From Sphingomonas ginsenosidivorax (GTDB taxonomy: Bacteria; Pseudomonadota; Alphaproteobacteria; Sphingomonadales; Sphingomonadaceae): a DNA stretch of 62,500 bases. Each line of letters opens with the position of its first letter. The first letter of the stretch is position 1. This document shows positions 1 to 34,053 of this stretch, in pieces. The notes under the pieces were generated by a model. The model worked only from the letters and a program-made list of their open reading frames with translations. It had not been told where the DNA came from and did not search any database. The stretch covers positions 1-62,500 of the forward strand of contig NZ_VOQR01000001.1 in NCBI RefSeq assembly GCF_007995065.1, given 5' to 3'. The position numbers were made by a program, and so were the translations under genes.

Positions 1-1199
1 GGGACGGCCTATAGCCAGACGCTGACCCGCGGGGCGGCGCGACGCCTATGCCTTCGCCGCAACGGGCCTGCCGACGGGCCTGGCGCTGGCGGCCGACGGG
101 ACGCTGTCGGGCACGCCGACCCAGGCCGGCAGCTTCTCCGTGGACGTGACGGCGCAGGACAGTTCGACCGGCGTCGGGCCGTTTTCGGGTACGCGAAACT
201 ATACGCTGAGCGTCGCCGCCCCACGACCCCCGACCACTCGTCGTGGCGGCCCGTGACGCTGCCCGCCGCGACGGTCGGCGTCGCGTACGGCGAGACGGTC
301 CACGGCAAGCGGGGGCAGCGGCCCATATTCCTTCGCCATCACGTCGGGCGACCTGCCAGGCTGGCCCTGTCCGGCGCCGGCGCGCTCTCGGGCACGCCGA
401 CTGCCGGCGGCAGCTTTGGCATCACGATCACCGCAACCGACGCCGGCGGCTTCACGGGCGTACGCGACTATACGCTGACGGTTGCGGCACCGACCGTGAC
501 GCTGACACCTGAGACCCTTCCCGCGGCCAGGCGGGGACCGCGTACGGCGCGACGATCACCGCGACCGGCGGCACGGCGCCCTACACCTATGCGGTGATCG
601 GGCGCGCTGCCGTCCGGATTGACGCTGTCGGCAAGTGGGACGCTGCGGGTACGCCCGAAGCGAGCGGCAGCTTTCAGCTCGGCGTGACCGCGACCCGACA
701 GTTCGGGCGGCAGCGGGCCGTATGCCGGGACGCGCAGCTACACGCTGGCGATCGCCGCACCGGCCTTGACGCTCGCACCTGCGACGCTGGGCAACGCGAC
801 TGTCGGGGTGGCCTACAATGCCGGGGATTACGGCGAGCGGCGGCACCCGCGCCCTATGCCTATGCGGTGACCGCGGGTGCACTGCCCGCCGGGGTGACGC
901 TTGCCGCGGACGGCACGCTGTCGGGAACCACGACCGCGGGCGGCACATACGCCTTCACCGTGACCGCGACCCGACGCGACCGCGGTCGGGAGCGGCGGGC
1001 CGTACAGCGGTATCCCGCGTCTATACGCTGGTCGTGGCGGCACCGACTGTCGTGCTGGCACCGGCCAGACTGCCCGCGGGGCAGGCGGGGGTGGCATACA
1101 GCCAGACGTTCCTCGCCATCGGGGGCACCGCACCCTACACATTCGCGGTCACCGCGGGTGCAACTCCCGTCCGGGTGAGCCTGTCGGCGAGCGGCACGC
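1..1199 (+). pseudogene. Frameshifted upstream part of the repeat adhesin
   Basis: This stretch encodes the same Ig-like repeats as the ORF that follows (pieces such as GTAYSQTL, LAADGTLSGTP, SGGTAPYTFAVTAG), but the coding phase jumps between all three plus-strand frames. By reading repeat consensus against each frame I place shifts near 30, 235, 303, 355, 527, 602, 650, 696, 816, 845, 972 and 1012. Two more, near 1238 and 1554, lie inside the next entry. Several sit in C or G runs, for example GCGACCCGACAG where sibling repeats have GCGACCGACAG. The true N-terminus lies left of the window. Either the gene is decaying or this repeat tract was read badly; the rest of the window shows no comparable density of indels, so a local cause is certain but its nature is not. 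Confidence 0.75.
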
Positions 1200-4100
1200 T
1201 TGCGGGGACCCCCAGCGCGGGCGGCAGCTTCCCCCTTCCAGCGTGACCGCGACCGACAGTTCGGGCGGCAGCGGGCCCTATGCAGGGACGCGCAGCTACA
1301 CGCTGGGGATCGGCGGACCGACGCTGGCGCTGACGCCAACGTCGCTGGCGAGCGCGACCGTCGGGGTAACCTACAGTGCGAGTATCGCCGCGAGCGGCGG
1401 CACCGCGCCCTACGCCTATGCGGTGACCGCGGGCGCGCTGCCCGCCGGGCTGGTGCTCGCCGCCGACGGGACGCTGTCCGGCACGCCGACCGCGGGTGGC
1501 AGCTTCGGCGTCACAATCACCGCGACCGACGCCGGCGGCTTCGCGGGCGCGGGGGCTATACGCTGGTCGTTGCAGCACCGGCCGTTTCGCTGGAGCCGGC
1601 AAGCCTGCCGGCGGGGCAGACGGGCACCGCGTACAGTCAGGTGCTTCTCGCGACCGGCAGCACGGCGTCCTATAGCTACGCGGTCAGCGCGGGCACGCTG
1701 CCGGCCGGGTTGAGCCTGTCGGCAAGCGGCACGCTCGCAGGGACGCCGAGTGCGAACGGGAGCTTCGCATTCAGCGTGACTGCGACCGACAGTTCGAGCG
1801 GCAGCGGGCCGTATGCCGGGACGCGTAGCTACACGCTGACCATCGGTGCGCCGACGCTGACGCTGGTGCCTGCGACGCTCGCGAACGCGACCGCGGGGGT
1901 GGCCTATAGCGCCAGCCTCACCGCGAGCGGCGGTACCGCGCCCTACGCCTACACGGTTACCGCGGGCGCGCTGCCCGCCGGGCTGGCACTCGCCGCCGAC
2001 GGGACGCTCATGGGGACCGCGACCGCGGCCGCGGCCGGCACGTACGGCTTCACCGTCACCGCGACCGACGCAACCGCGGCGGGCAGCGGCGGACCCTATA
2101 GCGCCTCGCGCGCCTATACGCTGGTCGTGGCGGCTCCGACAGTAATCCTGGCACCCGCGAGCCTGCCGGCGGGACGGGTGGGAACCGCATACAGCCAGAC
2201 CCTCATAGCGGTCGGCGGCGCTGCGCCCAATGCCTTTGCGGTCACCGCGGGCGCGCTACCGTCCGGGGTGAGCCTGTCGGCGAGCGGCACACTGGCGGGT
2301 ACGCCGAGCGCGAGCGGCAGCTTCACGTTCACCGTGACCGCGACCGACAGTTCGAGTGGTAACGGACCCTATGCCGGAACGCGCAGCTACACGCTGGCGA
2401 TCGGCGCAGCCACGACCACGCTGACGCCCGCCCCTGCGACGCTGACGGGCGCGACCGTCGGGGCAACCTACGTCGCGAGTATCGCCGCGAGCGGCGGCAC
2501 CGCACCCTACGCCTATGCGGTGACCGCTGGCGCACTGCCTGCCTGGCTGGCGCTCGCCGCCGACGGGACGCTGTCGGGGACGCCGCTCGCAGGCGGCAGC
2601 TTCACCTTCGGCGTCACCGTGACCGACAGTTCGGGCGGCAGCGGACCCTATGCCGCCACGCAGGACTATACCGTCCGGGTCAAGGCGGCGGTGCAGCCGA
2701 TTGCCGTGGATACCACCCTGACCGCCAAATACGGGGCGGGGCCGACGCCGGTTCCGCTGCAGCTGAGCGGGCCTCCCGCCGTCGGGGTCGCGGTCTCGAG
2801 TCCGCCCGCGCACGGCGCTGCCGTCGCCGGCGGGATGTCGATGACCTACGCGCCCGCGCCCGGCTATGCCGGGACCGATCGCTTCACCTACACCGCGTCC
2901 AACGGGGGCGGTACGTCTGCGCCCGCTACGGTGACGGTCACGGTGACGCCGCCGGCGGTACCGACCGCGGCGGACCAATCGGTCACCACCGCCTACGGCA
3001 CCGCGACCGGCATCGATCTCTCGGGAGCGATCGCAGGCGTACACACCGGTATCGCCATCGCCAGCGGGCCGTTGCATGGCACCGCGAGCGTCAGTGGCGA
3101 GGTGGTGCGCTACGCTCCCACGGCCGGCTATTACGGTGCGGACAGCTTCACCTATACTGCCACCGGCCCCGGGGGCGTGTCGGCGGCGGCAACGGTGACG
3201 ATCACGGTCGGCGTGCAGGCGATCGCGATCGCGCCCGACTCGCTGGCGGCGGGACAACAGGGCATGGCCTATTCCGCGACCATGTCCGCCAGCGGCGGCG
3301 CTGCGCCGTATCGCTACGCGAGCACGGGCGGGGCGTTGCCGGCAGGGCTGGCGCTGTCCGCCACGGGCGAACTGGCCGGAACGCCGACGCAGAGCGGCAG
3401 CTTCGCGATCGCGATCACCGCGACCGACAGCTCGACCGGTGCCGCGCCTGCGTCGGCCGTGCGCACCTACACGCTGGTGATCGCCGCGCCGCCGGCCCCG
3501 ATCGCCGCCGGGACGTCGGTCACCGTCACGAGCCCCGCCGGCGGCACGCGGTCCGTCGATGTCACCCTGTCCGGCCTGGTCAGCGGCGTGTGGACGAGTA
3601 TCGATCTCGCCACGCCGCCACTCCGCGGCACGGTGACGCTGGCGACGACGCCGGCGGGTGGCGCGGGCGGGCAACCGATCGTGGTGGCCACCTATACCCC
3701 GCCGATCGGCTATCGCGGCCATGACGGCTTCACTTTCGTCGCCTTCGGACCGGGAGGGCGTTCCGCTCCGGCCACCATCGCGATCACGGTGCTCGGATCG
3801 CCGCCGGTCGCACCGACGTTGACGGCAGGCACCGGGCAGAACGTGCCGGTGACGGTCGACCTCACGACACAGGCGCGGGGCGCGCCCTATACCGGAGCGG
3901 CAATCGTCTCGGTGAACCCGTCCGGCGCGGCGACGGCGGCGCTGATCGAAGGCGGCGTAGTCGACGCCCGCACCTATCAGATGCGGATCACGCCCGAGCC
4001 GCGCTATAGCGGTACGATCGTCGTCACCTATACCCTCAGCAACGCGGTCGGGACGTCCGCGGCGGCGACCGCCACGGTCACGGTCACGGCGCGTGCGGAT

Positions 4101-5494: not shown

Positions 5495-5594
5495 TTGCAC
5501 TTGCGAGCTAGCGTGCTGCGATGCACAAGGAGCGTGCCTTTCAGGCATCCTCTCCTAAAAACTTTGGCTGGTCTCACGACCGGCCTTTTTTTTT
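5495..5594 (+). ncRNA. Candidate small RNA ending in an intrinsic terminator
   Basis: In the gap after the adhesin lie two hairpins in tandem. The first is TGCCT-TTC-AGGCA at 5537-5549, followed by the unpaired pyrimidine-rich stretch TCCTCTCCTAAAAAC. The second is GGCTGGTC-TCAC-GACCGGCC at 5566-5585, followed by nine T residues. A TTGCAC box at 5495 could be a -35 element, but no convincing -10 is seen. The exposed CCUCUCCU resembles the anti-Shine-Dalgarno motifs of known alphaproteobacterial trans-acting sRNAs. The second hairpin could equally just terminate the adhesin transcript, which ends 130 bp upstream. No family is recognised. Confidence 0.4.
5566..5594 (+). terminator. Rho-independent terminator
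   Basis: An 8-bp stem (GGCTGGTC/GACCGGCC, one G-U pair) with a 4-nt loop is followed directly by nine T. It ends either the adhesin mRNA or the candidate sRNA just upstream. The remaining gap to 5857 holds a GTGCCG/CGGCAC palindrome near 5661-5684 and nothing else I can name. Confidence 0.8.
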
Positions 5595-5857
5595 GATTCG
5601 ATTTGGCGCATGCTGGCCGTGCCGTCGCTAGCCGTAACAAGAAAAGAAACGTGCAGGAGTGGTGCCGCCGGGAAAACCGGCACCGGCCGGACGACCGCGC
5701 GGGGGATGAGCGAGACGCTCTCCCCCGCACTGCCCAACCAGCGGCTCTCCTTTTGATCGAAGCGCCTAGTCCCGGTGGACGCCGCGCCTCCGATGACGGC
5801 GTTACACGCCCGGGCCGCCATCGCCTTCACTCATCCGCATCCTGGTGACCTGCCCGG

Positions 5858-32300: not shown

Positions 32301-33131
32301 TCACCGCGCCGCCATCGCCCAGCGCAACACCGTCCCCGCGCCCATAGCCCCGGCACGCAGCGCGACCTTCTCGCGCAGCGGCACCCGCAACCCGTGCATC
32401 GTCCTCGCCCAGCCCGGCAACAGGTCGACCCCCGACTGCAACAGAATCTGCTGCAGAGGCTGCGACGCGAAATTGGGGGCAGGCTGATCGAGCAGCACGC
32501 CTGCCACGTCGCGGGTCCGCGCATCGACGCGCAGCGCGCCGCGCATCCGGCGTAGATACGCCTCCACCGTGGCCCGGCTCTCCGGTACCCCCGCCGCGCC
32601 CAGCCGGCGCGCCAGATCGGCCATCTCCGCATAGTACAGGTCCTGCCGCGCGCCCGGAAACCTCGGGTCGCGGTACCGGACATGGGCGGAGAGGAAACTG
32701 CGCGCCTCGGCGACATGGACCCAGGTGAGCAGGTTGGGATCGTCCGCGCTGTACGGCGTGCCGTCGGGCAGTGTCCCTCGGACGAATCCGTGCACGCGCC
32801 GGACCCGCGCGATCATGTTTTCTGCGCTCTCGGTCGATCCATAGGTGGTGGCGGCGATGAACCGTGCGGTCCGCTTCAGCCGTCCGGCCATGTCGTCGCG
32901 GAACCCCGAATGGTCCCAGACGCCCGCCAGCACCGCCGGATGCAGCATTTGCAGCAGCAGCGCGGATACGCCGCCGATCATCATCGCGGTGAAGTCGCCA
33001 TGCACCTGCCAGCTCGCGGAGTCGGGGCCGAACAGGCCATCGTCGCCGGCCGGCCGCGTCAGGTCGACCGCGGCCGCCTCGTCGGAACCCATCAGCGTCC
33101 GGATCTGGTCTTGAATGGCGTCACGCAGCAT
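32301..33131 (-). CDS. Oxygenase MpaB family protein (DUF2236)
   Basis: A 276-residue helical protein of the DUF2236/latex-clearing-protein-like group, heme-dependent in characterised members such as MpaB or Lcp. Visible family marks are LLLQMLHPAVLAGVWDHS (44-90 region), RTARFIAATTYGS, a VRRVHGFVRGTLPDG segment with the likely heme-ligand histidine, and LTWVHVAEARSFL. No signal peptide; cytoplasmic or membrane-associated. I chose the ATG at 33131 (MLRDAIQDQIRTLMG) over upstream frame that covers the structured leader. It lies 65 bp after the terminator-like hairpin at 33196-33238, which could control it. Confidence 0.85.
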   Translation of the reverse strand: MLRDAIQDQIRTLMGSDEAAAVDLTRPAGDDGLFGPDSASWQVHGDFTAMMIGGVSALLLQMLHPAVLAGVWDHSGFRDDMAGRLKRTARFIAATTYGSTESAENMIARVRRVHGFVRGTLPDGTPYSADDPNLLTWVHVAEARSFLSAHVRYRDPRFPGARQDLYYAEMADLARRLGAAGVPESRATVEAYLRRMRGALRVDARTRDVAGVLLDQPAPNFASQPLQQILLQSGVDLLPGWARTMHGLRVPLREKVALRAGAMGAGTVLRWAMAAR

Positions 33132-33195
33132 CGCGAATAATCTGGGGCGCGGCCCAGGGCGCGCCAACCGGCTGCGAGAAAATAAGGCAGAAATG

Positions 33196-33238
33196 AAAAG
33201 AGGTTGCCGGGGCGCATCCCTGCGACCCGACAACCTCC
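33196..33238 (-). terminator. Intrinsic terminator or attenuator before the DUF2236 gene
   Basis: On the minus strand GAGGTTGTCGGG pairs with CCCCGGCAACCTC around a GC-rich loop and is followed by TTTT. It ends the transcript that carries the 18-codon ORF, and sits 65 bp before the DUF2236 start. Whether it is a full stop or a regulated attenuator cannot be seen. Confidence 0.7.
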
Positions 33239-33246
33239 AGACATGG

Positions 33247-33342
33247 TCAGCGGCCGGAGAGCTCCAGCCCGGAGGACCATGCGAACCGCCTTGCCTGTGA
33301 ATCACGCCGTTGACTGGAGGAGAAGCCCTCCCGGCGCGACAT
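33247..33342 (-). CDS. Putative 31-aa Arg/Ser-rich peptide
   Basis: A second short frame in the same transcript, ATG at 33342, beginning MSRREGFSSSQRRDS and ending GLELSGR before TGA. It starts 8 nt after the stop of the 18-codon ORF, so reinitiation is possible. No independent ribosome site is clear. It spans the 5' part of the cloverleaf-like fold, which argues that RNA structure rather than peptide sequence may be conserved. Low confidence. Confidence 0.25.
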   Translation of the reverse strand: MSRREGFSSSQRRDSQARRFAWSSGLELSGR

Positions 33343-33350
33343 CTCGGCGT

Positions 33351-33407
33351 TTAGCGGCGCGTCCCCCGAACGAACCGAACCGAACTCACTGCTGAACCAT
33401 GAGACAT
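33351..33407 (-). CDS. 18-aa micro-ORF with perfect Shine-Dalgarno
   Basis: The frame encodes MSHGSAVSSVRFVRGTRR and stops at TAA (33351-33353). Its ATG is preceded, with 7-nt spacing from the AGGAGG core, by GAAAGGAGGTGATCC (33409-33423), which is complementary to the 3' terminal 15 nt of 16S rRNA (GGATCACCTCCTTTC). Hardly any other gene in the window has more than six such bases. The peptide is basic and not recognised. Either it is a leader peptide, as in attenuation, or a small protein in its own right. Confidence 0.5.
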   Translation of the reverse strand: MSHGSAVSSVRFVRGTRR

Positions 33408-33408
33408 C

Positions 33409-33423
33409 GGATCACCTCCTTTC
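33409..33423 (-). promoter_or_regulatory. Full-length Shine-Dalgarno of the micro-ORF
   Basis: GAAAGGAGGTGATCC on the minus strand pairs in full with the anti-Shine-Dalgarno tail of 16S rRNA. The bases directly before it form two small hairpins. Such an extended match would be expected to hold the 30S subunit tightly. Confidence 0.8.
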
Positions 33424-33534
33424 GCTTGTTGAAACAACGCGGCCAAGCCTGGCCGCCCCCGCAATGTGTATTGGGTAGGTCGCTGTTACAAGCGCTTATT
33501 TGGATGGTCTCGGCAAAGCGTTGTCATTGGGGGG

Positions 33535-34053
33535 CTAGCCCCGGCAATCCTCGGTGACGCGTTCGATTTCGGCCCAGGCGGGGAGAACGAGCGTGGCCTG
33601 TCCGGCCTGCGCCACGACGAAGCGGCCGCGACTGAATCCCATCGCCTCCAGGATCGGATCGGTGGGTGCCAGCGCGGCGGCGACATAGGGAACGGTGCCG
33701 CCGACCGGCTGCACCGGCAGGCTGCGCGTCGTGCTCGACGTGCGGATCGTTAGCGGCTGGACCGCGCTGCCCGCGCGCGACAGGAAGATCTGCCGCGCGG
33801 TCAGGTCGCAGCGCAGTGTCAGCGCGGCGTCGGTGCCCACGGCGCCGAACAGCGCGATCGATCCGCGTGCGTCGCGGCGATAGGTCCAGGTACCCGCACT
33901 GTACGGCAGGTCGCGCCAGTCTGCGGCCGGCGGCTGGGCAGGGACCGGCACGGGTCGCGGCGCAGGAGCGGGCGGCTGCGGCCGCGGAGCCGGCGGGGCT
34001 GCGACGCAGGCGCCGACGAGAAGCAGGACGGCGAGGGGGGCAAGGGCGCGCAT
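33535..34053 (-). CDS. Proline-rich lipoprotein of unknown function
   Basis: A 172-residue lipoprotein precursor. The signal peptide MRALAPLAVLLLVGAC ends in the lipobox LVGAC (Cys16). A Pro/Ala-rich stalk (PPAPRPQPPAPAPRPVPVP) spans about 20-45, then comes a globular beta-rich domain with WRDLPYSAGTWTYRRD, ALTLRCDLTARQIFLSR and LPVQPVGGTVPYVAAAL. The family is not recognised by name, though similar proteins are common in sphingomonads. I chose the ATG at 34053; the longer frame overlaps the divergent PRC-barrel gene. It lies upstream of the structured leader on the same strand. Confidence 0.82.
   Translation of the reverse strand: MRALAPLAVLLLVGACVAAPPAPRPQPPAPAPRPVPVPAQPPAADWRDLPYSAGTWTYRRDARGSIALFGAVGTDAALTLRCDLTARQIFLSRAGSAVQPLTIRTSSTTRSLPVQPVGGTVPYVAAALAPTDPILEAMGFSRGRFVVAQAGQATLVLPAWAEIERVTEDCRG

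Follow-up and report, generated by a model that had tools for sequence, protein, structure and literature searches.

A candidate translated, self-paired RNA of the Sphingomonadaceae that is distantly related to CC2171

The window analysed here is the whole 62,500-nt stretch of Sphingomonas ginsenosidivorax DNA, and it features a compact element on the minus strand between two genes on that strand. The upstream gene (33535..34053) encodes a lipoprotein-like protein of 172 aa without a Pfam match and is a conserved neighbour. The downstream gene (32304..33131) encodes a DUF2236/MpaB-type oxygenase (PF09995) and lies outside the unit, about 64 bp from the end of the terminator, as a neighbour in this genome. 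On the minus strand the element consists of a promoter-like pair, a small hairpin, the sequence AACAAGC, a 15-nt Shine-Dalgarno (SD) sequence, an ORF and, after it, the middle hairpin, a core of 40 nt and a terminator. The promoter-like pair includes a -35-like element, CTTGTA (33487..33492), and a putative -10-like element, CACATT (33463..33468), and the 5' UTR hairpin GCGGCC-AGGCTT-GGCCGC occupies 33439..33456. The extended SD sequence (33409..33423), with AACAAGC just before it, is followed by the 18-codon ORF MSHGSAVSSVRFVRGTRR (33351..33407), which starts with ATG at 33407-33405 and stops with TAA at 33353-33351. The middle hairpin (CGGGAGG..CTCCTCC; 33306..33334) is gapped out in some of the sequences from other genera. 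It is followed by the conserved core GCATGGTC..GACCATGT (33241..33282), for which local folding and pairing with the ORF are both possible, and by the intrinsic terminator GAGGTTGTCGGG..CCCGGCAACCTCTTTTCATTT (33191..33238).

The folding energy of the stretch is better than that of 100 shuffles (z -5.2), and a potential CCTCC/GGAGG alternative pairing is present in the letters. The intrinsic terminator that the initial annotation had proposed features covarying pairs in columns 233-235 and 238-241 of the genus alignment. That annotation also placed two small hairpins upstream; the one at 33456-33439 is supported by double changes in six of its seven consensus pairs (57 genus sequences), but the second, which appears in a single-sequence fold only, coincides in part with the promoter-like region. 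What had been called a cloverleaf-like fold is better described as the middle hairpin and the 40-nt core, and ARAGORN returned no tRNA or tmRNA match over the window.

The sequence GAAAGGAGGTGATCC (33423-33409, minus strand) is located 7 nt ahead of the ATG. The antisense strand of the 16S gene of this genome reads AGAAAGGAGGTGATCCAG, so the 15-nt match to the 16S 3' tail that had been reported for this site is exact. The 13-nt core AAAGGAGGTGRTC is found at two places in the 4.1-Mb genome, this locus and antisense to 16S, and a 14-mer searched with up to two mismatches occurs once in the window compared with a mean of 0.24 in shuffles. Open frames of at least 150 codons in the window offer 843 candidate starts, and the longest contiguous tail match at any of them is 8 nt. 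An RNA thermometer was considered and rejected, as the predicted openness of the SD sequence is flat at 0.29-0.31 over 20 to 48 C in the predictions made for three main-branch sequences.

At the DNA level the stretch has matches in 88 of 150 genomes, its own among them, corresponding to 88 of the 91 genomes of the genus and none of the 59 outside it. A pattern composed of the SD sequence, the start codon and codons 2-3 is carried by 145 of the 151 genomes of the genus and by 0 of 98 outside; the six genus genomes that lack it are 81-88% complete, and the same pattern read backwards was found in none. A covariance model of the unit, built from 52 genus sequences, finds it, with E values of up to 0.01 accepted, in 258 of 298 family genomes, representing 84 of 96 genera, in a search whose filters, like those of the class search, were stricter and may under-call misses. 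The arrangement of SD sequence, ORF and terminator is thus conserved among the sphingomonads, and the lack of conservation that would have spoken against the initial annotation was not observed. The comparative set comprises 232 loci (124 main-branch, 75 CC2171-like and 33 other) that were sorted by text patterns, with MSHG serving to sort the main branch, and that were picked by an exact pattern over the SD sequence, the start and codons 2-3, which makes the invariance of those letters a result of selection. These loci derive from 263 matches in 282 loci after removal of 25 duplicates, 3 matches at an edge and 3 with frames of 57-59 codons. Locus L233 carries the label Kuenenia but probably stems from a mis-binned contig.

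The initial annotation knew of no RNA family that fits the element, and Rfam at its own cut-offs gives no match there; however, a permissive threshold reveals a distant relative, RF01867 (CC2171), which matches 33297-33431 over model positions 1-159 of 159 with 31.2 bits (E 4.9e-5). This score is below the curated cut-off of 75 bits, and the element is therefore filed as a sister branch of CC2171 and not as a member. The two share the 5' box CAACAA..GAAAGGAGGUGAUCC.(A/G)UGUCUCAU, which here holds the 16S-tail antisense, AACAA and UGUCUCAU, and in both the start of the ORF pairs with a box just 5' of the terminator. They differ in that CAUGGU/ACCAUG replaces CAUUGUC/GACAAUG, in an ORF of 18 codons compared with 20-26 in CC2171-like loci, and in an extra core domain. 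Over the class, RF01867 is found in 49 of 240 genomes and 39 of 202 genera, with 7 genomes above the cut-off, and among 14 named controls it is found in Caulobacter vibrioides only. The best 30 of 52 class-level matches, which include two from the window's own genus and family, all feature 11 to 18 nt of 16S-tail antisense, a GGAGG that starts exactly 12 nt before the start codon (ATG, GTG or TTG), and an ORF that runs for 18 to 35 codons; the box belongs to the model used to find these loci and the ORF end does not. The SD part is kept in all 30, and codons 2-3 vary in some. The DNA pattern search over named genomes returned at least 120 loci, and the 80 loci listed come from sphingomonads, erythrobacters, Brevundimonas, Phenylobacterium, Bosea, Methylobacterium, Microvirga, Roseomonas, Azospirillum and others; of the 40 beyond those, 35 are among the 232. 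RF01867 gained one more covarying pair in Rfam 15, according to the available text of PMC11701678, and the accessible part of an RNA-seq study of Mesorhizobium huakuii (PMC5596092) describes a CC2171 transcript, MH_s33, with a 215-nt sequenced product. The available portions of the literature on the family yielded no statement that CC2171 is translated, those on Zymomonas yielded nothing on this RNA, and plasmids gave no match to a CC2171-type peptide or to the element.

The extent of the tail match raises the question of whether the RNA is a decoy that holds 30S subunits by a 15- to 18-nt tail duplex, with the ORF only letting the ribosome leave. A 15-nt tail antisense is present in 123 of 124 main-branch loci and one of 17-18 nt in 31 of 75 CC2171-like loci, counts in which most of the first 13 letters are already set by the pattern that served to pick the loci. 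The uniqueness of the 13-nt core apart from 16S and the constant distance from GGAGG to the start, together with a tail match, in 30/30 of the best class-level loci also fit such a trap. However, in 26 of the 75 CC2171-like loci the run of contiguous Watson-Crick matches, which G-U wobble could extend, is only 11 long, and a decoy needs neither a fixed ORF length nor pairing of the ORF with the 3' domain nor a box before the terminator. A decoy is regarded as rather unlikely.

The ORF is 18 codons long in 121 of the 124 main-branch loci, 20 codons in 2 and 19 in 1, and it ends with TAA in 73, TGA in 40 and TAG in 11. All 84 distinct main-branch ORFs fall within 17-26 codons compared with 10% and 31% in the other frames, and all 73 distinct CC2171-like ORFs fall within 20-26 codons, with 5% and 11% of their other frames within 17-26; frames of more than 40 codons, 3 of 235 distinct matches (57-59 codons), were excluded from this comparison. 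The unit is conserved, and so are its frame, its length and the presence of a stop. These features, together with the use of ATG, GTG and one TTG as starts in the wider family and the invariance of the first four codons in 81 distinct 18-codon ORFs, where the search pattern largely determines codons 2 and 3, would suit a small mRNA that simply encodes a functional peptide of 18 residues (MSHGSA...). The substitutions point the other way. Differences at codon positions 1, 2 and 3 are 0.37, 0.40 and 0.23 (pairs not independent by descent), the reverse of what conservation of residues gives, with mean entropies of 0.64, 0.68 and 0.44 in the main branch, and the BLOSUM62 similarity of the true main-branch frame (1.70) is lower than that of the shifted frames (2.06 and 2.27). 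Base pairing may constrain the third positions, which means that the peptide is not proven idle, and in CC2171-like loci, where the true frame is somewhat more similar (1.34 compared with 0.87 and 0.84), the residues leave room for a peptide role. A search for MSHGSA in the open-licence literature found nothing, and the matches listed for other peptide starts are unrelated by title. These comparisons suggest that the act of translation counts for more than its product, and a messenger made for the peptide is considered improbable.

A lipoprotein-like gene is located upstream and co-oriented in 118 of 124 main-branch loci, with a median of 135.5 nt (64 to 3484) from its stop to AAAGGAGG, a position that would suit a 3' UTR element of that gene. 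Against this stand the failure to find the gene in any of the 75 CC2171-like loci, its detection in 2 of the 33 others, and the promoter-like motif that is conserved upstream of the SD sequence. The motif CTTGTA-N18-CACATT scores 12/12 at the window locus and at least 10 in 49 of 64 genus upstreams, from which the consensus was derived and for which shuffles reach 9 at most; outside the L001-L108 set, 24 of 59 upstreams score at least 10 compared with 1 for shuffles. A 3' UTR origin is accordingly held to be distinctly improbable. An exact dyad, ACAAG-N-CTTGT, is present upstream of the SD sequence in 70 of 123 main-branch loci and 46 of 64 in the genus set; at the window locus it is imperfect (33486-33499) and overlaps the -35 element, and it is possibly an operator. 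A different, sigma-32-like motif, CTTGAA-N16/17-CCATAT, scores at least 10/12 in 35 of 40 ATG-start loci outside the main branch compared with 2 of 103 shuffles; it belongs to those loci, and a sigma-32 promoter is not claimed for the main branch.

The short ORF, the alternative pairings and a terminator before a co-oriented gene in this genome had suggested a leader peptide and attenuator for the oxygenase gene, a reading that synteny leaves with hardly any probability, since the downstream gene is not conserved: DUF2236 follows in 1 of the 124 non-redundant main-branch loci, the window's own, whereas 11 loci have a fumarase there on the opposite strand and 9 an amidase. The sequence covered after the stop extends to at least 700 bases in 122 of these loci and to at least 1,100 in 121. 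An apparent frame at 32304-33350 finds matches in relatives because this stop-to-stop frame runs through the element, and those other than its own locus sit in or beside the element. A fixed neighbourhood for the loci outside the main branch was likewise rejected, as the largest flanking cluster, based on crude stop-to-stop frames, comprises only 19 of 108.

The folds predicted across genera make the ORF itself a pairing partner of the 3' domain. For the genus alone, RNAalifold favours a hairpin between SD and ORF together with a local hairpin in the core and the terminator; on 58 sequences (loci after L108, mainly of other genera, with some of the same genus) it instead pairs codons 3-6 and 8-10 with CCGGCC-GCUG-ACCAUG and codons 13-16 with the arm before it. 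Two helices are distinguished. P1 is formed by codons 3-6 (CAUGGU-U-CAGC; 33391..33401) and GCUG-ACCAUG (33242..33251), and the 5' strand of P2 is formed by codons 13-16 (UCGGGGGA; 33362..33369). The P2 coordinates are given by position, as the window sequence is not a row of that alignment; this strand is also paired in the predicted optimum of the window sequence. In the 58 sequences 97.5% of the P1 and P2 cells are paired compared with 20-43% for slid versions, and the covariation is 0.219 compared with 0.119 in shuffles (0/500), in counts whose structure was taken from the very alignment being counted and whose rows are related and not independent. The 62 cells with double changes (18.7 in shuffles) all lie within P2, which is thereby supported by covariation, and in the main branch P1 hardly varies. 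Support for P1 comes from loci outside the main branch. After 13 of 108 without terminator or box were dropped, 95 were left, of which 62 are distinct, and in these 229 of 248 variable-position pairs are kept compared with 209.9 shuffled (sd 2.4; 0 of 5000 shuffles). The codon 3-5 helix is complete in 46 of the 62 compared with 36.2 shuffled. The same test in 17 more diverged class loci did not rise above background. With P1 enforced, nine tested sequences fold at 0 to 4.4 kcal/mol above their optimum, four of them at 0. In the predicted optimum of the window sequence the codon 13-16 helix is retained and the SD sequence pairs with ORF codons further on, and the fold without P1 is better by 2.5 kcal/mol. 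This result and the SD-ORF hairpin preferred in the genus suggest that a switch may lean one way. A local CATGGT arm, which competes with P1 for its 3' strand, is present in 82 of 124 main-branch loci, partial in 21, absent in 20, and in 1 there is no box.

The preferred reading, held with moderate confidence, is that the element is an independently transcribed, translated and self-paired regulatory RNA whose fold is set by ribosome loading, and that it forms the Sphingomonadaceae sister branch of CC2171. Through the 15-nt duplex, 30S subunits would be loaded very strongly. As long as no ribosome is bound the ORF would be tied up, with codons 3-6, 8-10 and 13-16 paired to the 3' domain across genera, or, for the window sequence, in the optimum described above. 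An initiating or translating ribosome would break these pairings, and the freed 3' strand could then fold locally, giving at least two states of the RNA. The output would act in trans, by pairing with other RNAs or by holding 30S subunits; the lack of a common downstream gene and the varying peptide make an RNA-level output in trans most likely. Transcription, translation, the switch and an output other than the peptide or a downstream gene are predictions from comparative data. This reading keeps part of the second model of the initial annotation, a dual-function sRNA or decoy, as the unit stands alone with a promoter-like motif, a covarying terminator, a conserved frame, length and stop and a long-range fold; the "basic peptide" of that model is doubtful, as the residues are poorly conserved. 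A broader version, which is speculative and not thought likely, regards the RNA as a sensor of ribosome state across the Alphaproteobacteria. The 15- to 18-bp duplex would read free 30S subunits or the exposed 3' tail of mature 16S rRNA, and initiation on a throw-away ORF would refold the RNA and release a trans-acting 3' strand, with the peptide as a by-product and the act of translation as what is selected.

The DUF1127/CcaF1 and CcsR ("cuckoo") RNAs of Rhodobacter combine a small ORF with a hairpin RNA that features CCUCCUCCC loops. The present element resembles them in that combination, and a sigma-32-like motif is found in the ATG-start CC2171-like copies; however, the 18-codon ORF is not a DUF1127 protein, a distinction based on ORF length alone, and no conserved CCUCCUCCC loop was noticed in the sequences inspected. 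The dual-function sRNAs rnTrpL/peTrpL, as treated in the available sections of PMC10117765, and Spot 42, cited there, are similar as short transcripts with a translated micro-ORF (translation being predicted here), whereas in the present case the residues are poorly conserved and no biosynthetic operon lies downstream. The same sections report that a third of 54 new small ORFs of S. meliloti sit on annotated sRNAs. In Caulobacter most genes lack an SD site, and the ncRNA regions are stated not to be translated, with two exceptions, in the accessible text of PMC4117421, which counts against the preferred reading. If the preferred reading holds, an RNA filed in Rfam as an sRNA would prove to be a micro-ORF transcript in many members of a bacterial class, one whose match to the 16S tail is extreme. 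It would provide a testable object for the interplay of sRNAs, ribosome loading and very strong SD pairing where most genes lack SD sequences, as in Caulobacter (PMC4117421, available text), and annotation may overlook both such RNAs and their ORFs.

Three further observations concern the element and its surroundings. At 5529-5600 on the plus strand, the window features an Rfam match to the suhB/mmgR sRNA (RF00519) with 45.7 bits at a cut-off of 41. An optional hairpin-like insert with a CCTCC stretch is located between the ORF and the middle hairpin in L029, L052, L054, L056, L060, L064, L069, L088, L209, L248 and L278. The SD-start pattern matches two or three times in 41 of 151 genus genomes and once in the window genome, and the second copies that were read (n=18) are all of the CC2171 type, so the main type and the CC2171 type coexist in the genus. 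These second units in same-genus genomes (L031-L042, L044, L045 and L047-L050) feature an MSHC.. ORF, a GACAATGGAAAGGCCG-like box, a terminator and the sigma-32-like motif CTTGAA-N16/17-CCATAT.
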